NCBI GenBank assembly: GCA_034687125.1
Contig: JAQGBZ010000519.1
Location: 1-36,202, forward strand
Length of the DNA stretch: 36,202 nucleotides
Direction: 5' to 3'
DNA from: Neelides folsomi
Lineage: Eukaryota; Arthropoda; Collembola; Neelipleona; Neelidae
The notes under the pieces are model-generated. The model ran no database searches. It saw only the letters and a program-made list of their open reading frames with translations, and had not been told where the DNA came from. Below, one piece after another: positions 28,959-36,202 of this stretch (the stretch's first letter is position 1; every line of letters begins with the position of its first letter). Position numbers and translations under genes: made by a program.

Positions 28959-29434
28959 TCAATTGAAAGCTAATGGCGTAATTAACACTGCAATATTGTT
29001 TTGATTAAGATTGATCCAACCATTTGACACAGAATCAAAAAATGGCCATGTACTCGAGTTCTTTCCTTCTTTAAAGTTCCACATGAACCATCCAGCAGCT
29101 TGTTCGTAAACTCCGATTTGCTAGCGAGCAAAGTCAACTTGATTTTGGCATTTTGTCGGCGTTGCAAGGGACCATTCCCCCACAACGGTCAAAAGCTTCG
29201 CATTGGATTGTTGGAGCGGAGCAATGTGATTGCATGGATATGCAGCTTGTTCCTCGCTAGTCATGTTTTTTAATTTGGGCTCAAAAACTTGATACAAATG
29301 AGTGTCGAGCATCATGGAATTATGAGAATCCTCTGCCAAGTAAAACCAATTAGCAAAACTTATAAATGCGTCGTGAATGGCAACAACGACAGTTGGATTA
29401 AATTGCCGAACATTGTAAAACCTCGAATCCAAAA
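28959..29434 (-). pseudogene. GH5 exo-beta-1,3-glucanase-like 3' fragment with internal stop
   Basis: On the minus strand one frame carries GH5 (fungal exo-1,3-glucanase type) signatures in the family order: VVVAIHDAF, LDTHLYQVF, TVVGEWSLA with the nucleophile Glu, and AAGWFMWNFK near the end. A TAG at 29123-29121 interrupts this frame between FAR and QIGVYEQ; another 53 sense codons follow to TGA at 28961-28959. The N-terminal half, including the NEP acid/base motif, is absent, and an in-frame TAA precedes the first Met. The fragment may begin after a splice AG at about 29435, but no upstream exon was found. The gene is therefore truncated and interrupted, most likely a relic of a horizontally acquired or duplicated glucanase; such genes are known in springtails. 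A poly(A) signal remains at 28946-28951. Confidence 0.75.
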
Positions 29435-30396
29435 CTACATAGTGCATTTAATACACAGGAAAAATTGGGTAGTGTGTGGTACATGCTGAAAGTGAAATGA
29501 ACCAAATTGAACTTAATGTTAAAAGAGACCAGCATTAAAATGGTGATATAAATATCGATATTATCATTAATTTTTTTAATTAGTTAATAATTAACCAAAT
29601 AGCATGCAAAATTACAATTAAATAAATACCACAGTTTGGAAAATGTGATAGTTAAAGTGGAAATAAAAATTAAATTATTAATTGATATAAAAACGCCGCA
29701 CATTTTTTATTACCAGCAATTTGCGTTCAAAGAAAACTAACAATTGAAAAAATTATTAGGTATTAATTATAAACAAATAATATATTTTAGATGTACGCAA
29801 TTTGGCTAATTTTACTTAAAGGGTGTTTTTACGGTGCAAAGTTGATTATAAAATTACTTGTACAGTTGTTGTACATTGAAAATGGAACAAGCAAAATCAA
29901 ACGTGGTTTGTGGTTTTTCCTTATTAAATTTCTCCTTATCTATTCTGTATATTCAACGGGATAAATAAATATTCATCTTTATGGTTTCATTTCAGATTAA
30001 GACTAATACCGAGTATTTAAACAAAAAGTAAAGACCATTATTGTTATCACCATCATTAAGGCAAGAAACATTAAGTATGTAAAGGCTGGTATTCTTCCTT
30101 ATTTTTTTCAGATTATATTATTCTCTTTGCCATGTGAATAATTTCAAACTTTAATTGTCTGTAATTTGCCGGACAATAAATTCACTTTCATTCGTTCATT
30201 CATTGTAATCACCGTATCACCATCATATTAACTTTACATCCATAAATCTATATAAACTATTTAATATTAATTTTACAAATATGAACATCTTTAAATATCG
30301 TTTCTTTTCCTAGCCATTCTTGTAATATTAAATATATCCAGAAATTTTTTATTATTTAATCAAAATGTTCAAAATTAAAATTTTATTTAATAATAG
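29435..30396. other. Region upstream of the GH17-receptor gene; first exon unresolved
   Basis: The signal-peptide exon of the next gene should lie here or further left but was not identified. A short ORF at 29791-29962 begins with a hydrophobic stretch (MYAIWLILLKGCFYG); its nearest donor sites right after that stretch do not match the phase of the exon at 30397. The rest is AT-rich without clear signals. Confidence 0.4.
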
Positions 30397-33300
30397 ATCG
30401 AATGTAAGGGTTTTAATTCCGTCACGGGCGTCACATTTTCTCCTTATACAAAGAAAGGAGTCAATTGGGACCAATATAGTTATGAGGATATCAAAGCTCA
30501 ATTGAACACCATTGGATCAAAATTCAAATGGATTTCGACTTACAGCATGGGAGTTAATCGTAAATTACATTAGTTTTTAATTGAATAATTATTGTATCAT
30601 TTAACGTTTAAGACTAAAATTATTGGGAAGAATCTCCATGATAAAGCATAGATTTTCCATGGATGTTTTCCTATTTTCCATCGTGTAGTATCGAAAGTAT
30701 TTTTTCTTATGGTGAGATACCATTTAGTATTCGATACAAATCTTGGCTAACATTCAGTTACTCTGCAAAAATCATGTAGGTATTAAAACCATGGTTCTCT
30801 CTTATATGGTGACTCCATGGTGCACCAGATTCATTACGTATCCAGTGGTTCTCATTGCCATCATGGTGAGCTTTTCAGTGAGTGAATTTCACCATGATGA
30901 AGTGAAGGTGATAAAAGATCAATGTGGTAAATTCCCTGGTGAATTCTGGTCGTTTTTTGGTTTTTGACTTTATGGAGTCATCCACTGTGAGGGTTGTGAG
31001 TTTACTTTGGATGCTGAAGGCACTATGGAGTTGGTTAGATTTAAGCTTCATTGGTTTCACTAGGAGTTTTTTATGATTTCATTTTGAGTAAATCATGGTG
31101 AGAAGATCAACATTTTGAAAATCATGGGGTACGTGGTGAAAACTGGTGTGCATCATAGAGTCACCATAGATGAGATGGGAAATGGAAAATTCATGCTTCA
31201 CAATATAGACTCCATCATGATTTACCAGGAAGTGTCCAATAGGTAAATTCACTGTTTTAATAGTTTCATTTTTAAAATTTTATGGAATTTAACTAATTTT
31301 CACATCTATAGAATGGAATAAAAACAAAAATTGGTACGAAGCTGATGGGAATTGTTTAATTGCAAAAGCAGCATCGGATTTGAACCAAGGGAATAACACC
31401 CAATTGAAAGTGTCCATCGGAATTTACCAAAACGAAGTCGATTCGTCAATTGAAAATAAAGAGATTGAAAACGCGTTCAAGGCAGCCTCAGATGCAAATG
31501 AACGGTCTCCAGGGACCGTGTGGGGAATTGTTTTCACAAGCCAATACATCACCAATACCAACACGGCCAATCGAGTTTTGCAAATGATCCAACAGAATAA
31601 AAACAGAGGGATAAGGGTCGGGACGCGGGTTCACGTTTGTGGGATTATCACCGACGAGGGAAATCCAATTCAGCCAATTTTGGTCAAAATTGCCAGGGAA
31701 TCTCATTTCATCATGTGCAACATGTATCCAGCAACACATGATTGCCAAGCTCAAGTAAATTAAATTAAATATGATAATATAATAATAAAATGAGAATTAA
31801 ATATTAATTGATTAAATTAATTAAAAATTAAAATAATAAATTGTATAATTTATATTTTGTATAATAAATTAAAAGTGCTTAAAATTATTTCTAATAAAAA
31901 TTTATTTTTTTTAAAGGATGAAGGTGTGAGAAGATCAATTTCTGGGATTGGAAACTTGTTTTTACAATTCAAAAAAAAATTTCAGAGCTACAATTCCGAA
32001 TTAGAAGTGATGATTGGAGAAACCGGATGGGCTTCTGAAGGGCCGACTTTCAATCGTTGCCCAAACAACGTTGAAAACATGAAGAATTTTTGGTGGGGGA
32101 TGGCAGAATGGGGGCGGCAGAACAATGTCAAGATTCACTTCTTCGAGGGAATTGACGAGCCTTGGAAAGGAGGAGAAGAAGGAGAAAAGCATTTTGGATG
32201 GTGGTTCAGAAATGGAAATCAATTTCCGCCGAATCTCGTGGAAAAAGTTGCCAATGAAAATGTTCAAAATTCTAACCAAGTAATTGAAGAAGAAACCACT
32301 TGTGTTTTATGCGGTCCACTCATTGCTACAGGCGGAGTTTTATTCACGGGATTTATCATTTTATTTTTATTTTGGATGTATTTTCGTCACAAAAAAGTAA
32401 TGATTTTGAATTTATACCAATTAAAATTAATTTTACTTTTATAAGATATTTCTCTAATAATCTTAATATATCTGTACATAGGTACCTTAATTTACTTACG
32501 GATTAATATATATTAATCAAATATTTGAAGCAAAAATATTTGTTGCTTCAAATATTTGTATTTTTAAAATCACCCTTTACAACACAGCACGAGCTTACAA
32601 TTAGTAAATTAACTAAAAGCGAAATTAAAGAATTCCTAAGTGGGGTTGAAGATATAATATCCAACAAAAATATTTATGAGAATAAGCCGTTTGATAAAAA
32701 TTATGAAGTTTCGGAAAGTCAACTTATAACAGGCAAACATATAATAAAGGAGAGTATTCACTTAGTATACCTAACTGGGCTTCTATGTTAAAAATGTTTT
32801 AAATTTTATTTATTTTTTAAATTAATACTATGGAATGAAATTTAAATGATTTTTATATGAAATCAATAGATTTTGACATTAAATATGCATTTTATTCTGA
32901 CTAAAAAGAAGAAGCATTAAATTCTTTATAAAGTATTAGTTGGTATTAAGTATGTATGTAGATGAAAGAACAGTACAGTAACTTATAAATGAATCTTCAT
33001 AAAGGTGAATTCGTTGGAATATCTGGAAATAAAACGAATTACATTACCTAAATATTCCTTTTAAAAATTCGTATCATATGTTTTACGAGTTTATTATAAA
33101 ATAATTGTGTATTACCCTAATTAACAAAAAGTTGATCAATTTGGTTTGAAGCTGTGAGTATTCTCATTTTGGTGAGCGTCCTTCGTGGCTTCAACAATTC
33201 CAAATTGTAACGTCCAATTCCCAAGAACCAAACTAGCGCCGTGACATGCGAACATGTTCCAAGAGTTCTCAACCCAACCTTGCAGGAGCAATAGTTTCCG

Positions 33301-35957
33301 ACTATTGCTTCATTTCCTTCAACGTCTTTTTCAAATTGAACAAAAACTTTGTTTTCTCGCCCCAACAAATCGTGAAGTTAACATGAAGAGATTTGTAATG
33401 AAATTGTGAGTTCATCATTCTTAACGTTCATTTTGCAGTATTCAATGGCTTGCTTAGTTTGATATGTTTCCAAGAGTGAAAAGTTTCATATCCATGTCGT
33501 CGAGTCTGGGAAATTGGGCCAAGTACTCCGTTGAGCAAACTCTCCAGTCTTTTTTTAACAAACGTTTGTTCTCAAAAATGGGTTGTAGGATATTTGTGTT
33601 ATTGTAGCGTTCAAGTGCCAGGTCAGCAATCATTGTGGGAATTGGTGAGTCGTCAAACAATTTAGGGCTAAATGTGTTGATCAGAGCAGCACCAATCCTT
33701 ACAAACAACGTCAGTTTTTCCTTTTTCACATAGGGCATTTCGATGACGGAATTTAACAGTCCCCACTTTTTTAATCTGGTATTTGAAGACTCCACCATGG
33801 TCATGCCGGGTCATAGTCACCTTACGAGTTGAATTGGCTTCAAGAGTAGTGAATTGTGTTTGACCCTTTTTAATCAGTGACTGCATTGAATTTTTGAATT
33901 TCTTGAGCTGATAATTTCACTTTATCTTTCATGATTTTGATTTGCTTCAAAGAATTTTGATCAAACAATTTGTCAACATTGAGGTGATGACGGCAAGTTC
34001 TGTTTTTGAGAGGAATAAATATTCTCTTGAAATTCCACAATTGCAAGATTTCTTCTTTCGGAATTTCACATCTTCCGTTTTTTTTGCAAATGAAATAATG
34101 AGACTCTGACTTGTAACATGAATTTAGCTCAAGGTAAATGGATTTGGGATCTTCATAATCTTGAGTGCTTTGATTTTGGCTTTCTTTGATTTTATCCTCA
34201 TCATTCTCAAACCCAGTTTCTTCTATCTCAAAATCAATTGACTCATCATCTGTCATTTCTTCTTCTTCCTAAAAGTGTATAAAAATTAGTTGAAATATTC
34301 ATAATAATTTCATTTTAACATAATTTATTTGATATATAAAACGAGTAAAACATAATTAATCTACCTCGTCAGTAAATTGAATAATTTTGCCCTTATGTAA
34401 TCCAGTGCAATTAAGCCGTTCTTTTCTTTGATTTTCATAATTCATCATTGAAATTGACGTTGAAGGTATTGAATAATTATAATGGACAAGTTCATCTAAA
34501 TGAAGTTCACAGTCTTGTTTACGGTAGATTTTGAGATGAATGACCTTTGGCGATTTTAAACGACTCATCAATTCACAAATTCTCCCTATTAAATTGTATT
34601 GAAGCTTTTTCGATTTAATGAAAAATTCATCACTGGAAAAATGTAGCTGAAACAAAATAAATTATATTTAATTATGTACACTTTTGTAAATTAATATTTA
34701 ACCGTTTAATTTATGTAAATGTGTATTTATTAATGCTATGTCTTCAATATAATTTTCATTTAAAGATTTTAAACCTCGTATTTCTTCATAAGATAACTCC
34801 AAGACATGAGTGAGAAAAGTGATGTGAAATGATTATTTGATTCATGAATTGTTTCTAAAAATGTTACAAGTGAAAATTGAATTTTAAGATTGAAATTCGT
34901 AATATTTTTAATTAGTAATTATTAATGATATTTATTTGCTCTAGGCTTCAGTAACCATCAATTTTCCCAACATGGTATTTATTTTATTCAACTCTCCATA
35001 AAATTGTGTATATGATAAATGCTAAAACTCAGGGGAACTTTTATGAGAAGTGCTTTTGTATTCTTCGTACATTTAACTTGTCATCTAATTACATACATTT
35101 GTGACCCTAGCGGCTAGATTTTTTCTTAGTACTTACAATAATTTTCCCAATATGAAATTTATATATGTTAATCTAGGCACAATTGAGAATAGATTTTCAA
35201 AATATCAAGTTCCAAACTTTATGCTAATATTATGAAAAATATCTTTATAAATCAGCCCAGATCTCATATCTAATGCATACTCTCCTTTGGTTTAAAAACA
35301 GTAATTTAGTTGATATGATTTTTACCTCAGGAATTTTTTATATATTTTTTAAACCATTAATTGAAGTATTAGTAATTTTAATATTTAATACACTAGATAA
35401 AGGTAAAATTTTGGGTGAAGGTGAATTCGGAACCGTTTGTAAAGGCGAATTAATGGTAAATAATGCCAAGTGTGAAGTGGCGGTGAAAACTCTTAAGGAA
35501 AACATTGATGCTTGTTATTTAAAATCTATTTTATCTGAAATAAAAATTATGCAATACATCGGCACCCATCCAAACATTATTGGATATTTTGGCGCAAATA
35601 CTAAAAATTTGAAAATTGGTAAACTTGTTAATGTTGCAAATCATAAATTGCTGATTCAAATTTTTATAAAAATTTAATTTATTAGTGATATACATAGTAC
35701 ATACTAGTGATATTTAATTTTATGTTAAATTTTTAATTAAAGGAAAAATATGTGTTGTTGTCGAATTTTGTAAAAACGGAAGCTTAAAAGATTATATGTT
35801 TAAAAATCGAGCATTTTACGTGGAGAAATTTAAGTCAAAGAACAAAACTGAAATTGCTCCCTTTCTAATATCATTTTTTAATTGGAGTTGTGAAATAGCC
35901 AAAGGCATGGCATTTTTAGAAAGCAAAAAGGTCATTTCATGTTACAGTTCTAAATGA
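30397..35957 (+). CDS. Receptor tyrosine kinase-like protein with GH17 glucanase-like ectodomain, 5' end and catalytic loop missing
   Basis: Exons 30397-30559, 31312-31754, 31917-32396, 32588-32732, 35403-35618 and 35743-35957 join in phase to 553 residues. Residues 1-320 resemble GH17 beta-1,3-glucanases: VTFSPYTKKG near the start, the nucleophile motif GETGWASEG (Glu237), and FFEGIDEPWKGG with KHFGWW. The general-acid region, normally VGNE, reads FTSQ (129-132), so the acid is Gln. A transmembrane helix (about 335-357) is followed by RHKK. The juxtamembrane (SEIKEFLSGVED, KPFDKNYEV) has the layout of arthropod receptor tyrosine kinases. The kinase N-lobe starts ITGKILGEGEFGTV, with VAVK Lys439 and alphaC Glu456, and continues to EFCKNGSLKDY and EIAKGMAFLESKKVI. 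The frame then ends at TGA before any HRD or DFG; a weak donor after AAG (35930) could lead to exons beyond the window. The join at 32732/35403 uses a GC donor. Inferred role: a beta-glucan-sensing receptor. Confidence 0.65.
30622..31240. mobile_element. Long inverted-repeat (foldback/MITE-like) element in the first receptor intron
   Basis: The left end (ATTGGGAAGAAT..., AAAGCATAGATTTTCCAT) matches the reverse complement of the right end (ATGGAAAATTCATGCTT ... GTGTCCAAT). Inner arms also pair: TATGGTGACTCCATGGTGCAC near 30804-30828 with its diverged complement at about 31145-31170. The arms differ by an internal deletion. The block is GC-richer than its intron and full of ATGGTGA/TCACCAT words. 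No transposase is encoded. Confidence 0.5.
32501..32558. repeat. Two adjacent perfect inverted repeats in the receptor intron
   Basis: Positions 32501-32518 are a perfect 18-bp palindrome, GATTAATATATATTAATC. Overlapping its last base, 32518-32533 (CAAATATTTGAAGCAA) pairs perfectly over 16 bp with 32543-32558, leaving a 9-base loop. The pair lies just before the splice acceptor at 32587. Confidence 0.8.
33117..34655 (-). pseudogene. Decayed DDE_Tnp_4/SWIM-type transposon protein, antisense inside the receptor intron
   Basis: Minus-strand reading frames carry pieces, in order, of an arthropod transposon protein with a DDE_Tnp_4-like transposase and a C-terminal SWIM zinc finger. N-terminal exons lie at about 34655-34365 (phase 0 start after TTTCAG) and from 34269 (EEEEMTDDE...). 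They are followed by SLIKKGQTQFTTLEANSTRKVTMTR (about 33886-33815), MVESSNTRLKKWG with the conserved downstream region (33804-33454), and the SWIM motif CSCKVGLRTLGTCSH (Cys-x-Cys ... Cys-x-His, 33368-33117). Frames change near 33870 and 33815, TGA/TAA stops interrupt, and the catalytic DDE segment before QTQFTTLEAN seems to be missing. The element is inactive. The family name is from motif memory; a related Harbinger-like group is possible. Confidence 0.6.
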
Positions 35958-36050: not shown

Positions 36051-36202
36051 ATGAAATACAGGGTGAAAAGAGATTATAAAAACGCCTGGTTAGTCCTTCT
36101 TTTCTTGCATATAACATTAGTTAGCGGGAAAAGTTTAGGCGGGATGTCCTTCATAGGACTTTGTTTTCATTATAATATACCTACTTCTTGTAATTTTATA
36201 AA
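36051..36202 (+). CDS. 5' exon of a secreted or membrane protein, running off the window
   Basis: ATG at 36051 opens a frame that stays open to the window end (50 codons). It reads MKYRVKRDYKNAW followed by a hydrophobic core (LVLLFLHITLVSG), a plausible signal peptide with a basic N-region, and then GGMSFIGLCFHYN. It begins only 94 bases after the receptor stop, on the same strand, so it may be the next gene of a tandem cluster. The family is not recognised. If the receptor gene continues beyond 35930, this ORF would lie in its intron and be spurious. Confidence 0.4.
   Translation, partial: MKYRVKRDYKNAWLVLLFLHITLVSGKSLGGMSFIGLCFHYNIPTSCNFI

Follow-up and report, generated by a model that had tools for sequence, protein, structure and literature searches.

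Receptor tyrosine kinases with GH17-like, probably inactive ectodomains in springtails, and a separate capture in Neelides folsomi

Results

A GH17-like domain in frame with a transmembrane helix and a kinase N-lobe

The stretch of DNA analysed here (the window) is contig C519, 36,202 nt long, from the 75.1 Mb assembly of Neelides folsomi in 840 contigs. The original prediction of six + strand exons with matching phases was confirmed at the same positions: joined in phase (start phases 0, 1, 0, 0, 1 and 1), the exons give a product of 545 residues running from a GH17-like domain through a transmembrane helix and a juxtamembrane segment into a kinase N-lobe (Table 1), and the phases match those of three paralogous receptor kinases. 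Around the exons for helix, juxtamembrane segment and kinase, C519 and the loci C280, C803 and C541 share the same intron phases (flanks, by eye). All window exon donors are GT except that of the juxtamembrane exon, which is GC (CAG|GCAAAC); C280, C803 and C541 have GT at that position (flanks, by eye). Exon 6 ends at 35930 (KK|gt), where C803 has an intron too, and not at the stop at 35957.

Table 1. Features of the GH17-kinase gene and its surroundings in the window
Feature	Position	Strand	Basis or remark
Homologue of the C656 leader-peptide exon and following intron	30262..30396	+	Leader one base short relative to C656; without an ATG in the frame of exon 1
Exon 1: start of GH17 domain (first exon found)	30397..30559	+	Genome search, joined model
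Exon 2: GH17 domain	31312..31754	+	Genome search, joined model, alignment
Ser-Gln codons replacing conserved Asn-Glu (GH17 acid/base residue)	31539..31544	+	
Exon 3: GH17 C-terminal part (nucleophile motif included), stalk, transmembrane helix	31917..32396	+	Single open frame
Nucleophile Glu codon (GETGW)	32019..32021	+	Kept in the window
End of C656 homology	32200..32258	+	One base fewer than C656 near 32250
Transmembrane helix LIATGGVLFTGFIILFLFW	32319..32375	+	Hydropathy
Exon 4: juxtamembrane segment	32588..32732	+	Also present in other receptors of the family; donor GC
Long juxtamembrane-kinase intron	32733..35402	+	SWIM-zinc-finger-like reading frame inside, on the - strand
Exon 5: kinase N-lobe	35403..35618	+	Gly loop GEGEFG, VAVK; joined model, Pfam
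Exon 6: second kinase exon	35743..35930	+	Up to MAFLESKK|gt; 272 bases before contig end

In a Pfam check of the joined product the kinase half of the prediction stood clearly (PF07714, N-lobe, E=4.7e-23, with GEGEFG and VAVK present), while GH17 (PF00332) reached E=9.3e-6 and 25.9 bits, below its cut-off of 28.2; the same stretch scored 28.3 bits, just above the cut-off, in a six-frame search. The hydrophobic helix has a mean hydropathy of 2.23 over 19 residues and shares with the GH17 C-terminus one frame that is open for 207 codons. Peak hydropathy is 2.2 to 3.3 in the window, C803 and the Folsomia receptor described below, as against 0.55 in C656, a kinase-free GH17 locus of the same genome. 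All 304 compared GH17 codons of the window are open, as are the kinase exons present. A kinase C-lobe (catalytic Asp, DFG, AARN motif) was found nowhere on the contig up to its end at 36202, and the contig ending there places it out of view.

A start codon or leader was sought for the window gene and none was found. The exon homologous to the C656 leader looks broken in its sequence, and an alternative leader at 29791 (MYAIWLILLKGC...), which has phase-0 donors, was set aside as no matching frame was seen in C656. DNA homology between the window and C656 falls into four blocks, from 29813 to 32258, the last of which extends beyond the C656 stop. Because the window has one base fewer near 32250, that stop lies out of frame and the reading frame runs on into the helix; an assembly error at this point would undo the window fusion. 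For the window GH17 branch, dN/dS comes to 0.234, compared with 0.065 and 0.069 on the C656 and C345 branches, and fixing it at 1 costs just 0.41 lnL, so that neutrality is not rejected in this comparison of three rows with a distant outgroup. Taken together, the leader, the single base and the dN/dS values mean that the window copy could be decaying.

Two further features lie nearby on the - strand. At 28959-29447, adjoining the GH17 receptor, two exons that resemble the C-terminal part of a gene match fungal exo-beta-1,3-glucanases whose structures are solved (1cz1, E=1.6e-6); the larger of them has no Pfam match. At 33117-34661, within the long kinase intron, there are reading frames that possibly belong to a mobile element; one of them weakly matches a SWIM zinc finger (18.7 bits against a cut-off of 19.6).

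The same order of domains at other loci and in Folsomia

Searching the N. folsomi genome with the window GH17 part yielded six GH17 loci in all, the window and five others. In 3 of the 6 (C519, C803 and C541), a kinase of the same family lies downstream on the same strand, a coincidence for which about 0.006 loci would be expected by chance (rounded inputs: 6 GH17 loci, 50 kinases, 3 kb). At the other three loci (C656, C345 and C226) the frame stops immediately past the final conserved GH17 residues, and the 56 kinase matches of the genome search include none of these loci.

At both C803 and C541 the GH17-like domain is followed on the same strand by a helix, a juxtamembrane segment and the exons of a complete kinase. 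C803 could be modelled as one gene with eight exons, GT-AG introns and a complete kinase; the architecture of C541 was read from its reading frames, without a joined gene model. The best protein match of C803 is isoform X2 of Folsomia candida LOC110847588 (P0001; 578 aa; 29% identity, over 76% of C803), which holds a leader, a GH17-like domain, a transmembrane segment, a juxtamembrane segment and a kinase N-lobe, in that order, in one predicted protein. P0001 is named 'uncharacterized', its listed Pfam domains are kinase only, and the isoform ends before the C-lobe. Both C803 and P0001 have a hydrophobic N-terminus starting from an ATG (judged by eye). The predicted receptor order of GH17-like domain, transmembrane segment and kinase is therefore borne out at C803, C541 and P0001, and the three loci together with Folsomia rule out a chance juxtaposition of GH17 and kinase genes as a general explanation.

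Assignment of the C803 and C541 heads to GH17 rests on alignment to the window GH17 part (E=7.5e-34 and E=3.0e-16, respectively), because in Pfam C803 scores 27.9 bits against the cut-off of 28.2 and the C541 head goes unmatched even with E allowed up to 1. When proteins were searched once more for additional GH17 receptors, P0001 itself and one GH17 protein (P0070) came back and nothing else, which counts against a wide spread of such receptors among deposited proteins.

A receptor kinase family with exchanged ectodomains

The window gene is one of a large family of receptor tyrosine kinases whose ectodomains have been exchanged (ankyrin, Ig-like, LDLa, GH17). The 56 exon matches of the genome search attest to the size of the family, often with several matches per gene. 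Ankyrin-like frames match Pfam ankyrin in all nine cases tested (L026, L028, L030, L031, L032, L036, L042, L045 and L047), and in translation the ankyrin-type loci show a hydrophobic stretch and a juxtamembrane segment after the repeats; a receptor tyrosine kinase with ankyrin repeats as its ectodomain would be odd in its own right. An exon of C280 matches LDLa in Pfam, and 3 of 7 exons judged Ig-like by eye match an Ig family there, all below cut-off.

The C-lobe motifs read HADLATRN and DFG in C803, HADLAARN and DFG in C541, and HSDLAARN and DFG in C280. All three have another residue in place of the HRD Arg of the kinase (HAD, HAD and HSD; L048, L049 and L053), with the Asp, the AARN-like motif and DFG kept.

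C516 was weighed as a candidate for the 3' part that the window gene lacks, and discarded because it has a second N-lobe exon of its own. An orphan kinase C-lobe sits where the C803 contig ends, upstream of its GH17 receptor (C803:11579-11752, - strand, L048), with best matches to C280 (35 identical of 53 aligned) and C259b (35 of 56). That it might be the missing part of the window gene, which would then stand in tandem with C803, is a guess from sequence similarity, and stays one because the scores of further paralogs are close behind.

Separate ancestry of the window receptor

Both halves of the window gene have close relatives in the same genome, at different loci. Its GH17 part is 86% identical to that of kinase-free C656, and its kinase is 56% identical to that of C280 over 176 columns, compared with 33 to 37% for the other GH17 receptors. 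In the kinase tree C519 and C280, whose ectodomain is LDLa, form a pair with support of 99.3/100. Holding the four GH17 receptors together was rejected for the GH17 half (AU p=0.00038) and for the kinase half (AU p=0.00267). The window GH17 part groups with Allacma (SH-aLRT 89), and P0001 falls outside both the GH17 and the kinase group of the window copy. The window copy has an ancestry separate from the other GH17 receptors and is a later capture.

A kinase group of C803, C541 and Folsomia is not rejected (AU p=0.631) and is weakly supported (89/59), and long branches meet among these three in the GH17 tree, so that the older three may represent one capture or more. Overall, the GH17-kinase fusion probably arose at least twice in the lineage. 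Rows P0076 and C226 were left out of the GH17 tree, and the kinase tree left out C358 (72 filled columns) and loci that repeated an included gene or were unlabelled (e.g. L023); its ectodomain labels were assigned by eye, with a Pfam check on part of them.

Loss or change of the catalytic glutamates

Kinase-free relatives of C656 comprise 67 database proteins (28-55% identity over 26-99% of C656), from soil arthropods (Oppia, Orchesella, Allacma, Folsomia, Pseudolycoriella and Dinothrombium) and from cyanobacteria (one named Nostoc); unlike the receptors, they have no kinase among their listed Pfam domains, in a length-limited search from which full-length receptors were excluded. Together with C656, C345 and C226 they form the 70 rows without kinase of a joint GH17 alignment, in which the acid/base Glu is kept in 67 of the 70. 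Among the database proteins 64 of 67 keep it, in contrast to the receptors, where the window has Gln at this position, C541 Val and Folsomia Tyr. In C803 this column is ambiguous (Asp in one alignment; Glu after a seven-residue gap in another), and its nucleophile is Asp instead of Glu in both. A catalytic Glu is lost or changed in all four receptors, and the pair of acid/base and nucleophile Glu was found in none of them, with the ambiguity at the C803 acid/base position. The 'catalytic-type' ectodomain first proposed for the window gene is not supported, the acid/base Glu being Gln there.

In a profile search of solved structures, the GH17 heads match 4wtp, 6fcg, 3ur7 and others (the (beta/alpha)8 fold being judged by profile alone), and the acid/base column aligns to the acid/base Glu of Rhizomucor miehei RmBgt17A (4wtp). 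The roles of the acid/base and nucleophile Glu in that enzyme are described in PMC11005184, with respect to which our numbering is offset by 34, counted by hand. In the barley enzyme, the corresponding E94A change (acid/base Glu to Ala) gave no products as reported in PMC11080057. From the identity of the changed residues, the receptor heads are probably dead enzymes.

The receptors differ in how far they have changed elsewhere. We defined 43 conserved columns at >=95% in 67 kinase-free rows, leaving out P0047, P0055 and P0073, which lack the acid/base Glu. The window fills 42 of these columns and departs at 2, the acid/base Glu and the Asn before it, as against departures at 11 of 43 in Folsomia, 14 of 43 in C803 and 15 of 41 in C541. 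The older receptors (C803, C541 and Folsomia) have also changed at N187 and Y189, two cleft columns whose counterparts in RmBgt17A are Asn152 and Phe154 (own count on the profile alignment), residues discussed together with the aglycone subsites in PMC11005184; the ligand of the older receptors may accordingly be something other than glucan.

Window and C656 differ at 40 positions, of which 13 fall on the window branch with C345 as reference, the Asn and Glu changes included. The change from Asn-Glu to Ser-Gln comprises three adjacent base changes, and may thus be a single mutation; the chance of its falling at this site would then be a few per cent (about 12 in 304, own estimate) and not 1/861.

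The three metagenome proteins P0047, P0055 and P0073 are GH17 sequences without the acid/base Glu (D, N and Q, respectively). In the GH17 tree P0073 groups with the receptors of C541 and Folsomia (fork 85), and it could be a fragment of a further receptor.

Discussion

These results lead us to consider it likely that springtails have GH17-TM-kinase receptors with dead heads that hold glucan, the window copy being a later capture onto a C280-type receptor. As to the heads themselves, the most likely reading is that they are catalytically dead receptors with beta-1,3-glucan as putative ligand, and a role as a putative sensor of beta-glucan or fungal walls is plausible. The window copy would have formed when a duplicated kinase-free GH17 gene landed upstream of the transmembrane segment of a C280-type receptor. 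The cleft of the dead beta-1,3-glucanase would still hold beta-1,3-glucan, for example in fungal wall fragments, and multivalent glucan would gather receptors such that their kinases phosphorylate one another; in this way, the lineage would have turned a digestive enzyme into a sensor. More tentatively, and with less than even confidence, we suggest a stronger form, in which a beta-1,3-glucanase was joined to a receptor tyrosine kinase in springtails on at least two occasions, with a catalytic Glu lost or changed each time, and the head is a substrate trap (Glu to Gln in the window) that would sense fungal or algal wall glucan directly.

Several alternatives bear on the window copy. The architecture could be real in C803, C541 and Folsomia while the window copy is a decaying gene or a chance juxtaposition and no working chimera, a reading that we regard as rather unlikely, and which draws on the broken leader-homologous exon, the relaxed dN/dS with neutrality not rejected, the GC donor of the juxtamembrane exon, a fused frame that hangs on one base and a C-lobe absent from the contig. 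Against it, the 304 compared GH17 codons and the kinase exons present are all open, the splice phases agree with those of the paralogs, helix and GH17 share the open frame of 207 codons, and no conserved column is changed apart from those of the catalytic Glu and its neighbour. A single origin, in which the GH17 exons of an old GH17 receptor were overwritten by gene conversion from a kinase-free paralog, would leave the same GH17 tree and fits the division of C656 homology into four blocks (29813 to 32258), but the window kinase also lies outside the group of C803, C541 and Folsomia (AU p=0.00267) and pairs with C280 and its LDLa head, which makes such conversion improbable. Least credible is an assembly chimera or contamination: the contig is a 36 kb piece, one of 840, that ends within the gene, but close paralogs of both halves (C656 and C280) occur in the same genome, the join of GH17 and helix falls inside one open frame, and the same order recurs on two other contigs.

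The nature of the ligand is a separate matter. The GH17 head may instead bind a protein or another non-glucan ligand, its fold having been reused as a binding surface in the manner of Klotho; this we consider possible but doubtful on the comparisons at hand. The many conserved columns changed in C803 (14/43), C541 (15/41) and Folsomia (11/43), N187 and Y189 among them, speak for such reuse, whereas the window keeps every other comparable conserved column (40/42).

Known systems resemble these receptors in part. Klotho is a pseudo-glycosidase that works beside the FGF receptor, a receptor tyrosine kinase, so that a pseudo-glycosidase and a kinase are combined in both cases; Klotho has a GH1 fold and a protein ligand and is a separate co-receptor chain, whereas in the predicted protein P0001, and in the joined model of the window gene, a GH17-like domain that has lost its acid/base Glu, a transmembrane segment, a juxtamembrane segment and a kinase N-lobe make up one chain. 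The beta-glucan recognition proteins (GNBPs) of arthropods likewise use an inactive beta-1,3-glucanase as a fungal-wall sensor, but with a GH16 fold and no kinase. Tobacco CHRK1 and the plant GH18 receptor-like kinases are alike in carrying a domain of a glycoside hydrolase family outside and a kinase inside; they differ in that the domain is of the GH18 (chitinase) family and the kinase a plant receptor-like kinase, whereas the domain here is GH17-like, and no GH18 family is among the Pfam matches of the window, C803 and C541 proteins. CHRK1 is reported to lack the catalytic Glu. Direct reading of a polysaccharide by a receptor tyrosine kinase would, to our knowledge, be unusual in an animal. 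A description of the GH17-TM-kinase architecture was not found in the literature surveyed (open-licence papers, mostly by listing). For plants, PMC5485988 treats 91 sequences of GH18 receptor-like kinases, with the domain taken as predicted enzymatic, and GH17 was undocumented in animals before the whitefly case, to the knowledge of the authors of PMC11800479.

The presence in one genome of the kinase-free C656 and the window receptor, with GH17 parts that are 86% identical, makes the step from enzyme to sensor testable in a single pair of proteins, and the family as a whole is an animal example of ectodomains being exchanged on a single kinase scaffold. If the proposed reading is true, springtails would possess a pattern-recognition receptor made from a digestive enzyme, within a receptor family that exchanges its ectodomains.
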